Position numbers and translations under genes: made by a program
Source: Nannochloris sp. 'desiccata'
Taxonomy: Eukaryota > Chlorophyta > Trebouxiophyceae > Chlorellales > Chlorellaceae
Direction: 5' to 3'
NCBI GenBank assembly: GCA_019044685.2
Contig: JAGTXX020000002.1
Span: 620,001 to 684,000, forward strand
DNA length: 64,000 nucleotides
The notes under the pieces: model-generated
Seen by the model: the letters and a program-made list of their open reading frames with translations, nothing else
Told to the model about the DNA's origin: nothing
The model's database searches: none
Shown here: piece by piece, positions 7,710-38,375 of the stretch
How the letters are laid out: every line of letters begins with the position of its first letter
Position numbering within the stretch: position 1 is the stretch's first letter

Positions 7710-8569
7710 TCAACTTGCGAGGAGTGGCTGAGGTTCATTTTCTTGTTGTCGTGCGGCTGGAACAGCAGTGGGTTTATGCGTGGGTACAGAAGGCAACGCT
7801 TCTTCTTTCTTTTCTATAACAACCGCAGCAGGCACAGCAGGCAATTCTGCTCCTGCCACTTCCATCTCTAATGCCGCCAGCTCAGCTTCTATCTCACTTT
7901 CATCTTGTCCTGTCCAAGAAACTCCTAAAGCACGTTGTAATTGATCCTGATATTCACGTGCTTCTGCAGTTTCTTCCATTAATTCCTCTACGTCTTCTAA
8001 TGCAACTGCTTTTTGGAGTAATTTCTGAGCTTCATTCCCTTGTTTTAAAGCGGCAAATACTTTGACTTGGTCTTTAGAACTCTCCACGTCGGCTAACTGT
8101 GAATTATTATTATGTTTAGAGAGAGGAAAGTATAATTAGTTAATAATGATATGTAGAAGTGCAAGTAAAAGATTATTTACTATGTAACACTAAAGAATTA
8201 TAGTTCAATTTTACTTGCCATGCTCTCGACGTTCAACAAAAATGCATCGAGCTTTAATAGAGTATTTTCTTGCAATTTCTTCTTTTTCAGGGCAAGCAAC
8301 GCTCTATCTTTATGTTCTGATGCTATTAATTGCCGTGCAACGAGAGTTTCACGTCCTATTTGAGCTGTGACGCGAGTGCGGTGGTCTTCTAGACGATGAC
8401 GTTGAGTTTTGAGACCGAGCACCGCCCTGTCCACTTCTGTAATCTCTAGTCTGTAGCATTTTAGGGGATGGAAGTAAGGAGGAAAAGAGTTGGTTAAAAG
8501 ATATAAATGAGGTAACCAGAGTGTTAAAAAGGGGACGCACTTTGGTTTATTGCTAATAATATTTCCCAT
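7710..8569 (-). CDS. VPS20: ESCRT-III subunit VPS20/CHMP6
   Basis: Membrane-remodelling subunit that links ESCRT-II to SNF7 polymerisation in multivesicular-body formation. Proposed exons: 8569-8541, 8450-8215, 8092-7710, giving 215 residues, close to human CHMP6 (201). The N-terminus MGNIISNKPK has the myristoylation Gly2 typical of CHMP6. A basic coiled-coil core follows (EITEVDRAVLGLKTQRHRLE, ARQLIASEHKDRALLALKKK), then an acidic half (VEELMEETAEAREYQDQLQ) and a tail with AELPAVPA. The join between exons 2 and 3 was chosen to keep the reading frame (donor GTAAAA, acceptor TTAG) and is the least certain part. It is convergent with beta-adaptin, with 173 bp between the stops. Confidence 0.85.
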
Positions 8570-31000: not shown

Positions 31001-34000
31001 CAAGGAATTGCTGGTATTGTTACAGCGCCTCGCTCAAGTTGATCGCTTACATGCTGTGCCCCTTCCGCTGAAGGCTTCTTGGGATTCGCAATTCCTCGAT
31101 CTCCTTTATACCGTTATTACAACGAAGAAGGTAAGTTTTTTTTTAGTATAAATGCTTTCAACCTGTTGCTAAGACGCAATTTTATAATTAAACATGTTGA
31201 TTTGCAGGAGGAGAATTTCGGCGAAGATGTATTTTTGCGCGTTGAACGCACTTTCTGCTGCGGACTCCACAGCTCTGACCCTGCCATCCGCCAAAAGTTC
31301 TTCCGTTTATACTCTGACCGTATTCAACGTGACTTGCACGATCGCTTGCGCTATATCATTCAGTATCAAGAATGGGACTTCCTTTCCCACACTTTTTGGT
31401 TGAAACATGCTGTTGCCTTGCTGTTTGATTGCCTCCACATGCGGGACCCGATCACTCTGGCCTACAATTCTGCCCATGTACCTCCATTGTTCAACTACAA
31501 AGAATCCCTCAAGTTCCCTGGTGGTCTTCTTGCTCAAGCAGCTCATCAGAGTGCAAAGCCAACTGAGCAGACTGCAGCTGGAACCTCGGCTCAACCCACT
31601 GATGCTGAAGGTGCCGCTCCTACTGCAGGCGAGGCCGCTGCGCCAGCTGGTGGTGAGGAAGGTGCAGTATCAGGTGATGCCCCTGTAGCAATGGATACCG
31701 AACTGGCAGCTGAAGGATTTCCTGCTCCCCCAGCTGCTGTTACAATTGAAACCGCTACTGCTGATGCCCCCGCTGCTGTATCTGGAGGAGGCTCCAAGGC
31801 CTCTGGTTCCAGATGTTCTCGCCGTGAAAAGACACCCGCCCCTGTCCTTCACCTCGATCTCCCTGAAGAACTCAGCTCTCAACTCACCCAGCATCTCGAT
31901 TTCTTAACCGAACAAAACAGCTTACAATCTGATGCTCTCGTCTCATGCTTGATTGAACAAGTTCAGAATGACCCTCTGGTAGCTCATCACCTCTGGGTAC
32001 TGCTGTTCCCTATTGTATGGACTTCTTTACAAAAGGATCAGCAAACTGGACTGGCCAAACCCATCATCCAGCTCCTTTCCAAAGAGCACCACTTGCGACA
32101 AGCCTACCTCCGACCCACCGTCGGTCAGACTTTGTTGGATGGTATCTCCATGTCTCAGCCTCAACCCAAGATTCCTGCTGAAATGATCAAATACATGGGT
32201 CGTCATTTCCACGCTTGGCACACTGCAATTTCCATGCTGGAGAGCCACGTTGGTCTCTTCCCTCAGGACATGCGGTGCTTTGATGCCGTTTGTGATCTGT
32301 ACTCGGCTTTGGGTGAAGAGGACATGCGTGCTGGGCTCTGGCAACGTCGTGCTGCTGCAGAAGAGACAAAGACTGCTATTGCGTTACAACAGCATGGGTA
32401 TATTGCTGATGCTCAAGGTCTCTATTTGGAGATGATGTCTCGAGGTGTCAGTGGTGGTGTCAGTGGTGTTACGAAAAGTGAAATGGTCCTTTGGCATAAT
32501 CAGTACTTGTCGTGCTGTATGGAACTGAATCAATGGGATGTTATTTCCGAGTACGCCAAGTCTACAGACAACTCTGCTTTACAGTTAGAGGCATCATCGA
32601 AATTGCACGATTGGGTTCATTTGAAACAAATGGCTGTCCCTAAAGCACAAGTAGAAGACGGCCCTGAGTTTACAATGATTAAAGCCCAGATGCAATTATC
32701 GGAAATGAGTTTGATGGAAGTAGATAAACTCTGCAAAAGTTCTCTAAATCAGTGTGTAATCCGCTGGTGGCAAATGCCAGAGTCTTCTCCTTGGAGCTAT
32801 GCCCCTGTCTTACATTCTTTCCAACGCGCTGTTGAGCTGATGGAATCCTGGCGTGTGATGATGGAATTCAGCATGCAGGGTGGCCCTGGTGCTCAATACC
32901 AGGACTTGAGAGATATTACCGACACGTGGAAATTAAGAACGCCGAATGATTGGGAACCAGTCCGGTGGTGGAGTGATGTGCTTACGTGGCGTAATCAGAT
33001 CTATAATATGACTATCCGTCAATTTAGTAGTTTCCAAGCGACTGCGCCTAATTTACATCAGATGGGCTACCGTGACAAAGCATGGAGTGTGAATCGTTTA
33101 GGTCACGTTGCTCGTCTTCATCACTTGCCAGAGGCTTGTTGCCACGTTATTAACACCTTATATGGCTTTAATGCCATGGAAGTGCAAGAAGCCTTTGTGA
33201 AAGTGCAAGAACAAGCCAAGGCGTATATGTTACGACCTACTGAACACTTGCATGGACTTAATTTGATCAATTCGACGAATATGGATTATTTCCAACCGCC
33301 ACATCAAGCAGAGATGATTTGTTTAAAGGCGCAGTTCTTGCAATTGCTCAATGAAGTAGATCAAGGTAGGTTTAATATTAGAATCGATAGAAATATAGTT
33401 AGATTTTGCATTTGAAACCGAGTAGACACTTTTTTATAACTCGAATAAAATTACAAAATTCTGGAGAATTTCCCGTCACTAACAAAATTTCTTCTCTCCT
33501 CTTGTCTCTTTTATCCTCTCCCTCGATACTGCTATTATTGCTTTCTGCAGCTAACAGCACTTTCAGTGAAGCTCTTACCTTATGGCCAATGTGCCCTGAT
33601 GCCTGGGTCAATTGGGGTCGATTCTGTGATAGTCGGTACATTCCAACAGATTCCAGTACATTCCATTGGCTAGAATTCGCTGCGTCCTGTTATTCTCAAG
33701 GAATTAGACTAGTAGGATCAGAAGCGCGGTCTTTAGTTCCTAGGTTATTGCATTTATTAATGCTGGATGTGAATGGAAACGAGTATGTCGGTCGTCCTTT
33801 AATGAATCAGGCTGGTGAAATGCCTAGTTGGGTATGGTTACCCTGGTTGCCTCAATTAATTACCAGTTTACAACGACCTGAAATGACTGTAGCGAGAAGA
33901 TTATTAATGTCTGCTGCACAGTATCATCCGCAGTATGTATATTGGCAAGTTAGACCTGCGTTGACATTGTTGAAAGATCAAGCATTGAAGGCGGTGGCTG

Positions 34001-35976
34001 CTGCAAAAGAAGAAAAGGCAAAGCAGAGTACTGCTGCTGCTGCTGCTGCTGCTGCATCAGCAGCTGGTGGTGGTGGTAACAGTGATGCTCCTGATGGCTC
34101 TGAGAAGGAGGGTGCTGCTGCAGATAAGAAGGATGCAGGAGGTGCTGCCAAGGAAGAGCCCGCAGCAGCTGCTGCTGCTGACAAAAAAGAAACTGCAGCT
34201 GCTGTCAAGGCAGGAGAGGACAAAGAAGGCAAGGCCAAGGACGAACCTGCTGCTGTTCCCGCTCGTCCTTCGTCTCCTCGTCTTGAAAAGCCCATGGAAG
34301 TCATTGCTTACGACCATTGCAAGGAAGTATTAGAAGCCTTACGTGCTAAACAGTCGCTTACTTTGCAATCTCTTGATCTTTTAATTACCGAACTTGGTGG
34401 TCAGAAATTTTCAAGTAGAACTGATGAACGATTACTCGCTGTAGTCTATACTCTCCAATTTAGGACGTATAAACAAGCATTACCTGCTTCAGCACCCATC
34501 CCTGCAACCCTTAAAAAAGAACTTGGCAGTGTATGCAAAGCTTGTGGTGGAAAAGACGCTGCTGCTGCTTCTGCCGCTGCTGCTGCTGCTTCAAATGCCC
34601 CCTTCTCATGGACTCGGTATCAGTATGAATTCGCTCGTGATTTAGACCCTGATTCTGAGAATACACCTAAAACACTAGGGGAATTAGGGGAACGTTTGAA
34701 GGGATGGAGAACGATGATGGAGGCGATGATCGAAGACTTGCATCCTCCGATTATTAAATTAGAAGAGCATGCTGCGAGTCTCGCTGAAATGCTTCTTGAG
34801 GAAATAGAGATGCCATGTCAAGCACCCCCATGCCCTGATGGTCCTGAACCTGTCTTTATTGAACGAATTGGAGCTGATGTTGAGATAGTTCGTAGAGCAT
34901 GTTCCTCTTCACGGAGAATCACCATCTTTGGTAGCGATGGACAGGCAAGAACGTTCTTGGTACAGCCTGTGACGCAGCAATTAGCACCTGGACATAGTGA
35001 AGAACGTGTAGGGCAGCTCCTACGTGCTGCAAATGGCGTTCTGGCAACACATCCAGAATCAAGAAGACGAGGTCTTGCCTTTTCTGCTCCCCGTTCTTTG
35101 GCATTATTACCTTCTGGTCGTCTCATTGAAGATGATCCCTCTGCTACGCTGTACGTGGATGCGTACGAAACGTATTGTGCACGGTATGGACGTGAACCTG
35201 ATGCTCCAATCTTGCATTTTAAATCGAGAACTTGTTTTGAAGATGGCTCTGTTGCTGACTCTCAGACCCGGCGTGCTGCTTATATTGAAATCACAGAGAA
35301 GATGGTTACAGAGAATGTCTTCTCACAATATATGTACAAGACCATGGTGGAGAATAGTCGAGTTATGTGGACGTTTAAACGACAATTTTCTCTTTCTGCT
35401 GCAATGTCTGCTGTTGCCTGTTACTCGCTCCGTTTGACAGGCCGGCTTCCAAATAAGATGCTTGTTTCAAAGGCAAAGGGAGAGATTACTCATTTGGAGT
35501 TATCTGCCATGTATAATGATCGATTACAACTGGATATGGCTGGTGAAACTGTGCCTTTCAGGTTAACCAGAAATATGACTGCCTTTATTGGTCAACACGG
35601 CTTTGAAGGAACCTTGATTGCCGCTGCCGTGGCTGCTGCTCAAGGTCTTCAACAAGAACGAAGCCCTATTGCATCGATGCTTGCGTTATTCCTGAGGGAT
35701 GACTTATTAGCATATGCACAGCGTAGATTAGTTGTACGATCCATTGCAGCTGTTAACTTGAAAGCAACTCAAGTAGACATGGCAACCACGTCAAACGTAA
35801 ATCAATGTTTGGGCAGACTTGAGAAAATTGGACCTAGGAATAGTGTTACGCCTGCGACTGTGCCTGGAACACAGACAATTGCCAATCCCCAAGCTGGTAT
35901 GAGGGAACTGGTGCATGTAGCGATGAGTGCGAATCAATTGTGTCAAATGGACCCCACTTTTATGGCTTGGTTGTAG
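22027..35976 (+). CDS. TRRAP: TRRAP/Tra1, PIKK-family pseudokinase scaffold
   Basis: Activator-binding scaffold of SAGA and NuA4 histone acetyltransferase complexes. Six exons joined in phase: 22027-22171, 22308-26152, 26268-28602, 28684-31130, 31208-33365, 33551-35976, giving 4,451 residues (human about 3,860). HEAT repeats fill most of the length, with N-terminal KFRSGVIELLGRIPVSELP. The FAT region begins around residue 3100 (AVCDLYSALGEEDMRAGLW, ANSTFSEALTLWPMCPDAWV). The PI3K-like fold is at about 4080-4400 and the FATC end reads ANQLCQMDPTFMAWL. The catalytic positions are lost (TGRLPNKM and THLELSAMYND replace HRxxN and DFG), as in all Tra1 proteins. The extra length is mostly Ala/Glu-rich inserts at about residues 470-680, 1175-1235, 1550-1750, 3040-3130 and 3795-3890. 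Confidence 0.95.
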
Positions 35977-36303: not shown

Positions 36304-37847
36304 CTAATTATTCAAAAGGCAAGGTCTTTTTTCATCTTTTACGACTTCTTTTTCTTCTTCCTCCTCCTCGACCGCCACCTCGCCTTCCTCATCTCCTTCT
36401 TCAGGCACCAATACTATCATCTCAGCCACTCCTTGCTGCATCAATGCCACTCTCACATCATGTCTATGTGATACCGCAGCATGCGCAGCACATACACCAT
36501 ATGGCAATGCATTTAATATATCTGTAGCATTATTTTCATAAACAACACCGGCAGCACCCGAGTAGATTCTAAGACGTGGAGAACGAATTGCTGTAGGCTC
36601 TATCTCCTCTGGTAATTTAATAGCGGCGGTAGGAGTAGCGGTACAAGTGTCAGTAGCAGAGTTTGTACTTTCTGCGTTTTTATTATGTTGTCTTTCATTT
36701 CCAGCCAAAGCAGCACGAACTGCATCAATACCTCTTGAGCTACAACCCTGGATATCATAATCTACTTGATTTTGTTGTTCGAAATATCGAGAAGAATCGT
36801 CATGCTCTTCTTCGTTAGGCAAAGCTTGAGCATGGGCTTTGATTGCGACCAAAGCGTCGTGCAGTCGAAGAGCGCCTGCAAACACAGCAGCAGCGTACTC
36901 CCCTGCACCAAAGCCTATACACGCTGTGATTGATCTAATAGCGTCAAGACCGTGGTGGAAGCGATAGTGCTCGACAGCGGCTAAGCCTGCTATAAGACAT
37001 CCTACAAGGCTACGTAAAGAGTAAAAAGAAACAGAAGAAGAAAGGGTGAACGACGGCGGAGGTGGCATTGCCATGGCCTCCTCTTCCTCTAATTCTTGTT
37101 CAATATCTTCTATTAATAGTATTCCAGTGAGGTTGTGGGCTAAGCGTACAAGTTTGTGTACAGAAGGTATATTTTGAGAATAACACCTTTTCAGAAACTC
37201 AAAACAATGTGGCCCTTGTTGAGGAAATAAAAATGCCGATTGGCCGAGTGGGCCACAGGGCAGCGTGCTCATTTGTTCAGCTATAGCATGAGAAAAAGCA
37301 GCTTTTAGAGCGCGGGTTTTAGCTATATGAGAAGCCAAGAGTGCATCGGCGTGATTATTAAATGCGTCTTTATCGTGGTTGCAGAGGTTAGTATGTTCTC
37401 TGTCATTGTTGCTGGGCTTGAGCACGAGAGACTGAAGGCTGTAGGGCCAAGACCCGAGGCTGGTAGGAGCTTTTACTAAAGTAATATGTAAAGAATGATT
37501 TTCTGTGGAGTGCCATTGACAGCTCTGGGGAGCTAGAGCACCCCATGGATGAACCTGCAAGGTTTTGTGAAAGAAAATATATTTAAAGATCAAGCGACGC
37601 TCAGGTGTGCCAACAACAGACATACTCTTTTCCTTACCTCTACGGCTATATCTCCAGCACTGTTCTTTAAAATTATAGCATCTTCACTAAATTCTACGCC
37701 AACATTTGTATCTAAAAGCTTTTGTGTCTTGCTATCAGCTCCCTCCTCCTCGCTTGCTAGCAACAAGGCATGAGGGATGTCTAGAATAACTTTTGCAAAG
37801 AGCTGTGTGACAGAACAGCTGACAGGACCTGCATAATACATATTCAT
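36304..37847 (-). CDS. CS-domain protein fused to degenerate malonyl-transacylase-like domain
   Basis: Exons 37847-37638 and 37554-36304 (GTAAGG donor, CTTGCAG acceptor, phase 0), giving 486 residues. Residues 1-~115 look like a CS (p23/NudC-type) fold: VSCSVTQLFAKVILDIPHA, IILKNSAGDIAVEVHPWG, CQWHSTENHSLHITLVKAP. Residues ~160-440 resemble a FabD/MCAT acyltransferase. SAFLFPQQGPHCFEFLKR stands where LFPGQGSQ is expected, GFGAGEYAAAVFAGALRLHD stands for GHSLGEYSALVAAGAL, and RLRIYSGAAGVVY with VRVALMQQGVAEMIVLVP matches the C-terminal part. The nucleophile Ser of GHSLG is Gly here, the GQGSQ Gln is altered, and the segment that should hold the catalytic His is replaced by a low-complexity stretch. 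It is probably an inactive scaffold. The acidic tail is EEGEVAVEEEEEEKEVV. Function unknown. Confidence 0.7.
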
Positions 37848-38375
37848 ATTTCATTTAGATATCGTTTGTGCGATAGATTTGCTCCATCGCGCTGCAGACG
37901 GTGCACAATTTTAAAGATCAAGATAATTGGTCAAACCTGTTTGACTTTGATATTGGAGGCTTATGGGGACTCCAAGCACCCCGCAGGCAGGGGACCATTC
38001 CATAGCTATGTTTGAATAAAATTACGGAAGCTCAGAATAGGTAACCTTCTGAGAAGAGATTTTTGGCGTGTTTTTGGCGATTGCAGGCAAACTTTCAAAA
38101 GAAAGTTTCTAACGAGCAACCGGGGCTGCAGTGGGCCTTCTTTCCCAAATTTTTCTTAGCAGAGCCCTACTTGAAGGCTTTGGAGCACTGTGCAAGACAC
38201 ACAAGTAATATATCATACACATCGCATAATTTCCAGGGATTTTATTAGGGAATCTGGTCTGTTGTGCTGTGTGAATCGAATTTTAACTCACTCAAACCAG
38301 GCACGCAATTCGCTCATTTGAAGCCAATATTTAATCAAGAGATATATCTATCGTTCCCCTTTTCCATTATTCAAC
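37848..38375. other. Divergent intergenic region
   Basis: 528 bp between the CS-domain gene and the P/Q-rich gene. It presumably carries both promoters. No supported element was found inside. Confidence 0.4.

Follow-up and report, generated by a model that had tools for sequence, protein, structure and literature searches.

A predicted green algal protein with a CS-like domain in front of a malonyl-transacylase-derived fold stripped of its catalytic residues

Background

What does a gene do when it seems to couple a chaperone-type domain to an acyltransferase that can no longer catalyze? The question is raised by a locus of Nannochloris sp. 'desiccata', a trebouxiophyte green alga, within the window analyzed here (the 64,000 nucleotides at positions 620,001 to 684,000 of contig JAGTXX020000002.1, GCA_019044685.2). 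A preliminary description made from the letters alone had proposed a CS (p23/NudC-like) domain fused to an apparently dead malonyl-transacylase (MCAT) fold, and its author knew of no described family of that kind. Profile comparison, predicted fold and relatives bear out both halves of the proposal within one gene, and our searches of open-access papers likewise turned up no account of a protein joining a CS domain to an MCAT-derived fold, nor any paper on acyltransferase or malonyltransferase pseudoenzymes or on the WPRLTKE motif.

Results

Gene model

The gene is built of three exons (Table 1), spliced from the start of P0001, a Nannochloris sp. 'desiccata' protein that matches with 99% identity over 97% of the query. 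The start first placed at 37847 lies inside intron 1; translation begins at 38003, and the exon thereby missed encodes the first N-terminal strand. The second intron lies exactly where it had been put. Exon 3 holds the last CS-like strands, a linker helix, the pseudo-MCAT domain and an acidic tail. The spliced product differs from P0001 by 4 substitutions and in its last residues, which are altered because the coding 3' end (36329-36304) is two bases off P0001 in length, and is otherwise identical; the TLPFE end of P0001 is also present in P0002.

Table 1. Coordinates and basis of the features of the locus, in window positions
Feature	Position	Strand	Basis or remark
Whole gene, CS-like plus pseudo-MCAT	38003-36304	minus	Three exons, 502 residues, spliced from start of P0001
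Exon 1 (residues 1-22 and first base of codon 23)	37937..38003	minus	N-terminus same as NCBI P0001
Intron 1 (GT...AG)	37829..37936	minus	Splicing on P0001 start
Exon 2 (residues 23-86), CS-like strands	37638..37828	minus	Splicing and secondary structure
Intron 2 (GT...AG, 83 bases)	37555..37637	minus	Splicing
Exon 3 including stop (residues 87-502)	36304..37554	minus	Single open frame
CS-like domain, residues about 13-131	37420..37967	minus	Profile-profile comparison and predicted fold; split by both introns
LxK...GSW motif at end of CS-like domain, residues 112-122	37447..37479	minus	Member alignment
Pseudo-MCAT domain, residues about 188-470	36403..37251	minus	Profile and predicted fold
His202-Cys203 (GPHC), replacing second Gln of GQGSQ and its neighbor	37204..37209	minus	Alignment
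Gly302 at catalytic-serine position (GxSxGE to GFGAGE)	36907..36909	minus	Alignment
Gln459-Gln460-Gly461	36430..36438	minus	19/19 members

We rejected a reading as two separate genes: exon 3 carries the CS end and the entire MCAT part in one frame, and a single ORF of the divergent relative P0015 spans both an N-terminus that can be aligned and the MCAT part. Across the surveyed genome (21.55 Mb, 18 contigs), matches of P0001 were its own three exons, two MCAT genes and one weakly matching frame (L012) that was set aside by eye as unrelated; no second copy of the gene was found among the best-scoring candidates. Rfam returned 0 matches on the window. The convergent neighbor (33403-35976, plus strand) encodes a PI3/PI4-kinase domain (E 4.4e-17) and is presumably TRRAP/Tra1-like; TRRAP/Tra1 is a pseudokinase.

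A family of 19 proteins

Three protein searches, each scoring the 7994-7998 candidates that shared most words, so that more members are possible, gave a family of 19 proteins including P0001, all of them without precomputed Pfam domains. The remaining 18 are between 76% and 31% identical to P0001, and 16 columns are invariant throughout. Many of the entries are probably ORFs called without regard to introns. Nine of the 19 start at the motif [ML]QA..W (7 members) or 8-11 residues before it (2 members); these starts fit the intron-2 acceptor of the window, which therefore seems, from the alignment, to be common to all nine, so intron 2 is probably old. Two candidate members, P0017 and P0018, were rejected: they are MCATs with other N-termini, and their catalytic Ser and His are intact. 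In P0017 a single frame encodes ankyrin repeats and MCAT; P0018, of metagenome source, bears a further N-terminal extension, and its C-terminus is odd. A pattern scan of viral contigs matched 60 stretches, none of them a relative.

The N-terminal domain

With E values up to 10 allowed, the Pfam CS model (PF04969) matched neither the window protein without exon 1 nor full-length P0001 or P0015, and a PF04969 search of the alga's own genome did not return the locus; we therefore call the domain 'CS-like'. The N-terminal 148 residues likewise found no match among PDB sequences. Given these negatives, the assignment rests on profile-profile comparison and predicted fold. With 15 of the 19 members as query (P0006, P0012, P0013 and P0016, which have little or no CS part, being omitted) and a CS profile of 10 sequences that did not include 2rh0, 2cr0 or 2jki, hhalign gave a probability of 78.6 (P 1.7e-5), a value reached by 0 of 300 shuffles, and a reversed score of 14.3 vs 35.0; a different choice of match columns gave probabilities of 23-29. 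Single sequences carried less signal: P0001 alone matched weakly (P 0.0075), and P0015 alone did not match (probability 0.3, P 0.2).

In fold searches with the whole model, the rows shown were all acyltransferase-fold proteins (AT enzymes, PKS/FAS and an acyl hydrolase), and for that reason the N-terminus was modeled alone. The resulting model, from an alignment of 9 of the 19 members, adopts a predicted CS beta-sandwich (pLDDT 73.7) with a low-confidence loop at residues 48-61; two of its 9 rows span the domain, P0001 and P0015 being the 2 of 19 members that cover it entirely. Conservation is strong at the end of the domain, where L112 and K114 occur in 15/15 members reaching the motif and G120-S121-W122 in 16/16, followed by P123 in 14/16.

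A malonyl-transacylase fold with a lost active site

Profile comparison and the predicted model both return the MCAT alpha/beta fold for the C-terminal part, and the MCAT landmarks pointed out there by the preliminary description are present and conserved in relatives; structure prediction thus agrees with its proposal for each half of the protein. Library models see the resemblance faintly. Pfam PF00698 scores 12.9 bits on both the window protein and P0001, below the cut-off of 32.7, the best score among members scanned being 19.9 bits (P0002), and NCBIfam acyltransferase models match weakly and far under their cut-offs (best E 0.00092).

We compared active-site columns with 13 intact MCATs, namely 9 of 80 bacterial loci, the two MCATs of the alga's own genome (L005 and L006), P0017 and P0018. 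The alignment supplied the columns, which we take to correspond to S92, H201, R117, Q11 and Q250 of E. coli FabD. The catalytic Ser, already suspected to be Gly, is present in 0/19 members (18 Gly, 1 Arg) vs 13/13 enzymes; an assembly error was rejected as its source, P0001 being among the 18 with Gly. The catalytic His of FHTxxM falls in a gap in 19/19 members and is His in 13/13 enzymes, the malonyl-binding Arg is found in 0/19 vs 13/13, and QxxxPVxW has lost its Gln in 19/19. The GQGSQ motif is degraded, as first noted, and reads FPQQGPHC; the Gln of the FPxQG loop, presumably that of the oxyanion hole, is retained by 11 of the 18 members reaching it. The ferredoxin-like small (lid) subdomain is missing or replaced. 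The earlier view that low complexity had taken the place of the His segment holds in part: the segment is lost throughout the family, but low-complexity spacing (105-131 residues between the flanking motifs) is confined to P0001-P0003, P0005, P0006 and P0016, and the other 13 members are merely short (51-70 residues, vs 130-151 in the 13 intact MCATs). P0004 is among the short ones although it belongs to the same subgroup as the low-complexity members. Within IYSGAAG the window has Ala where 17/19 members, P0001 included, have Asp.

Other positions have become fixed within the family. H202 and C203 are each present in 17 of 18 members; the 13 enzymes all carry Gln in the first column, and in the second they carry Ala, His, Phe, Thr or Ser. 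Cys272 occurs in 17/19 members, Cys298 in 18/19 (Cys in 0/13 intact MCATs), and Arg413 in 19/19 vs 4/13 enzymes, while Gln459 and Gln460 are each matched in 1/13. A copy that was simply decaying would not be expected to gain such shared residues.

Origin of the family

A maximum-likelihood tree of 32 rows, including 18 of the 19 members (the partial P0016 was omitted) and 9 of the 80 bacterial loci, places the 18 family rows in one clade (100/100). This clade lies within a group with human MCAT, an ankyrin-MCAT of the alga's own genome, P0017 and P0018 (98/98), outside which fall the second own-genome MCAT (L006) and the 9 bacterial sequences. Because the family stem is long (1.69), the letter make-up of P0015, P0017 and L040 is odd, and the four reference rows do not form one clade among themselves, the tree does not settle which lineage is the exact sister, and long-branch effects may be at work.

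In both own-genome MCATs the Ser, the His, the Arg and the two Gln are all intact. With two catalytically complete genes present, the enzyme is supplied elsewhere and the CS-like/pseudo-MCAT copy is free of that duty. The ankyrin-MCAT (L005/L013) is the best-scoring other own-genome match of P0001 (34% identity, E 1.9e-8). It lies on contig C3 (L013 2742-1174, minus strand) with an ankyrin exon upstream (L013:2617-2742, Pfam Ank E 8.7e-7), and its linker resembles what we take to be that of LTD/GDC1, the ankyrin protein of light-harvesting protein import; no paper on an LTD-MCAT fusion was found. Its bacterial relatives were gathered by a scan with six short peptide patterns, and the best-scoring among the 80 loci kept (L014-L039, L042) are mostly Planctomycetota, with up to 51% identity.

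Discussion

Sequence comparison and structure prediction together show a monophyletic family with a CS-like/pseudo-MCAT architecture, an MCAT-derived fold, loss of the catalytic residues and newly fixed positions of its own. From N- to C-terminus the protein would consist of a CS-like (p23/NudC/SGT1-type) domain, a helical linker, the MCAT-derived alpha/beta domain and an acidic tail, the last in this lineage. The N-terminus shows no apparent signal for import into an organelle: the first 40 residues of P0001 contain no Arg and one Lys, and the first predicted strand, from near residue 13, would leave little room for a transit peptide; the 2 Arg in the first 40 residues of P0015 speak against this reading. 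The Arg/Lys-poor N-terminus of P0001, the early strand and the intact MCATs elsewhere in the genome lead us to favor a cytosolic or nuclear CS adaptor. Such a protein may dock a chaperone or other partner through its CS part, and the pseudo-MCAT part may act as a module for protein binding, retaining a particular client or complex. We consider the chances about even that this is an undescribed family of non-catalytic cytosolic or nuclear adaptors or co-chaperones, consisting of CS-like domain, linker and a lidless pseudo-MCAT without catalysis, and neither an enzyme nor an acyl sensor. A fuller history is somewhat less likely: in green algae a mitochondrial-type MCAT may have come to lie behind a CS-like domain and lost both its lid and its catalytic residues. 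Remodeled around the newly fixed GPHC, PR and QQG, it would have become a cytosolic or nuclear pseudoenzyme co-chaperone whose former active-site cleft bears a new, conserved site for binding or of thiol type. The suggestion that the protein chaperones fatty-acid or polyketide synthase components survives to the extent that a chaperone-type role suits a CS domain; nothing was seen that links FAS or PKS clients to it.

Human MCAT doubles as an assembly factor of the mtSSU (PMC9892005, PMC11452305), so kinship with it makes organelle ribosome assembly a rival role, with the CS-like domain as a handle and the pseudo-MCAT part as the retained non-enzymatic side of mitochondrial MCAT. The shared tree group agrees with this, as does the account in PMC9892005 that human MCAT and METTL17 hold back mtSSU head compaction in states A-D. 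The same paper describes the role for human and states that yeast has no MCAT homologue, the Glu-rich tail of P0001 would be unlike an RNA binder, and the N-terminus bears no evident organelle signal; we regard such a role as unlikely.

We think it similarly unlikely that the family is an enzyme with new chemistry, in which His202-Cys203, perhaps with Cys298, would act near the former active site. The near-universal presence of these residues in the family, set against Gln in 13/13 intact MCATs at the first and Cys in 0/13 at the others, would fit such chemistry, but the cysteines may be structural. More doubtful is a sensor of malonyl-CoA, acyl-CoA or ACP, which had been raised at the outset and which MCAT ancestry and the Gln kept in the FPxQG loop might favor. 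Loss of the malonyl-binding Arg, of the lid, of the Ser, His and QxxxPVxW Gln, and of the thioester chemistry weakens it throughout the family, and so does the apparent want of a targeting sequence, algal ACPs being organellar. A decaying pseudogene or mis-joined gene model, to which the two-base difference at the 3' end might be thought to point, is very improbable, since conservation across a family of 19 members with 16 invariant columns stands strongly against it, as do the single clade formed by the 18 rows in the tree, the intron-2 acceptor apparently common to nine members and the single ORF of P0015.

Pseudoenzymes and CS fusions or adaptors are known kinds of protein; their combination here, and the family itself, are undescribed as far as these searches go. 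A domain structure can now be assigned to proteins that had no precomputed Pfam domains. An algal branch keeping the MCAT fold without catalysis would show the reach of this fold as a binding module, human MCAT already having a non-enzymatic role in mitoribosome assembly (PMC9892005).

Compared with human mitochondrial MCAT (PDB 2c2n, and 8csp for the mtSSU assembly intermediate), the family protein lacks the Ser-His-Arg site, the small lid subdomain and any evident transit peptide, and it has a CS-like domain in front. The CS domains of NudC, SGT1 and p23 (3qor, 2jki, 1ejf) sit in different architectures; the family N-terminus, unlike them, has no Pfam CS match, and its model contains the low-confidence loop. 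Nearest at hand is the ankyrin-MCAT of the same genome, which shares a tree group with the family but, unlike it, has complete catalytic residues, an ankyrin exon upstream and no CS domain that we could see.
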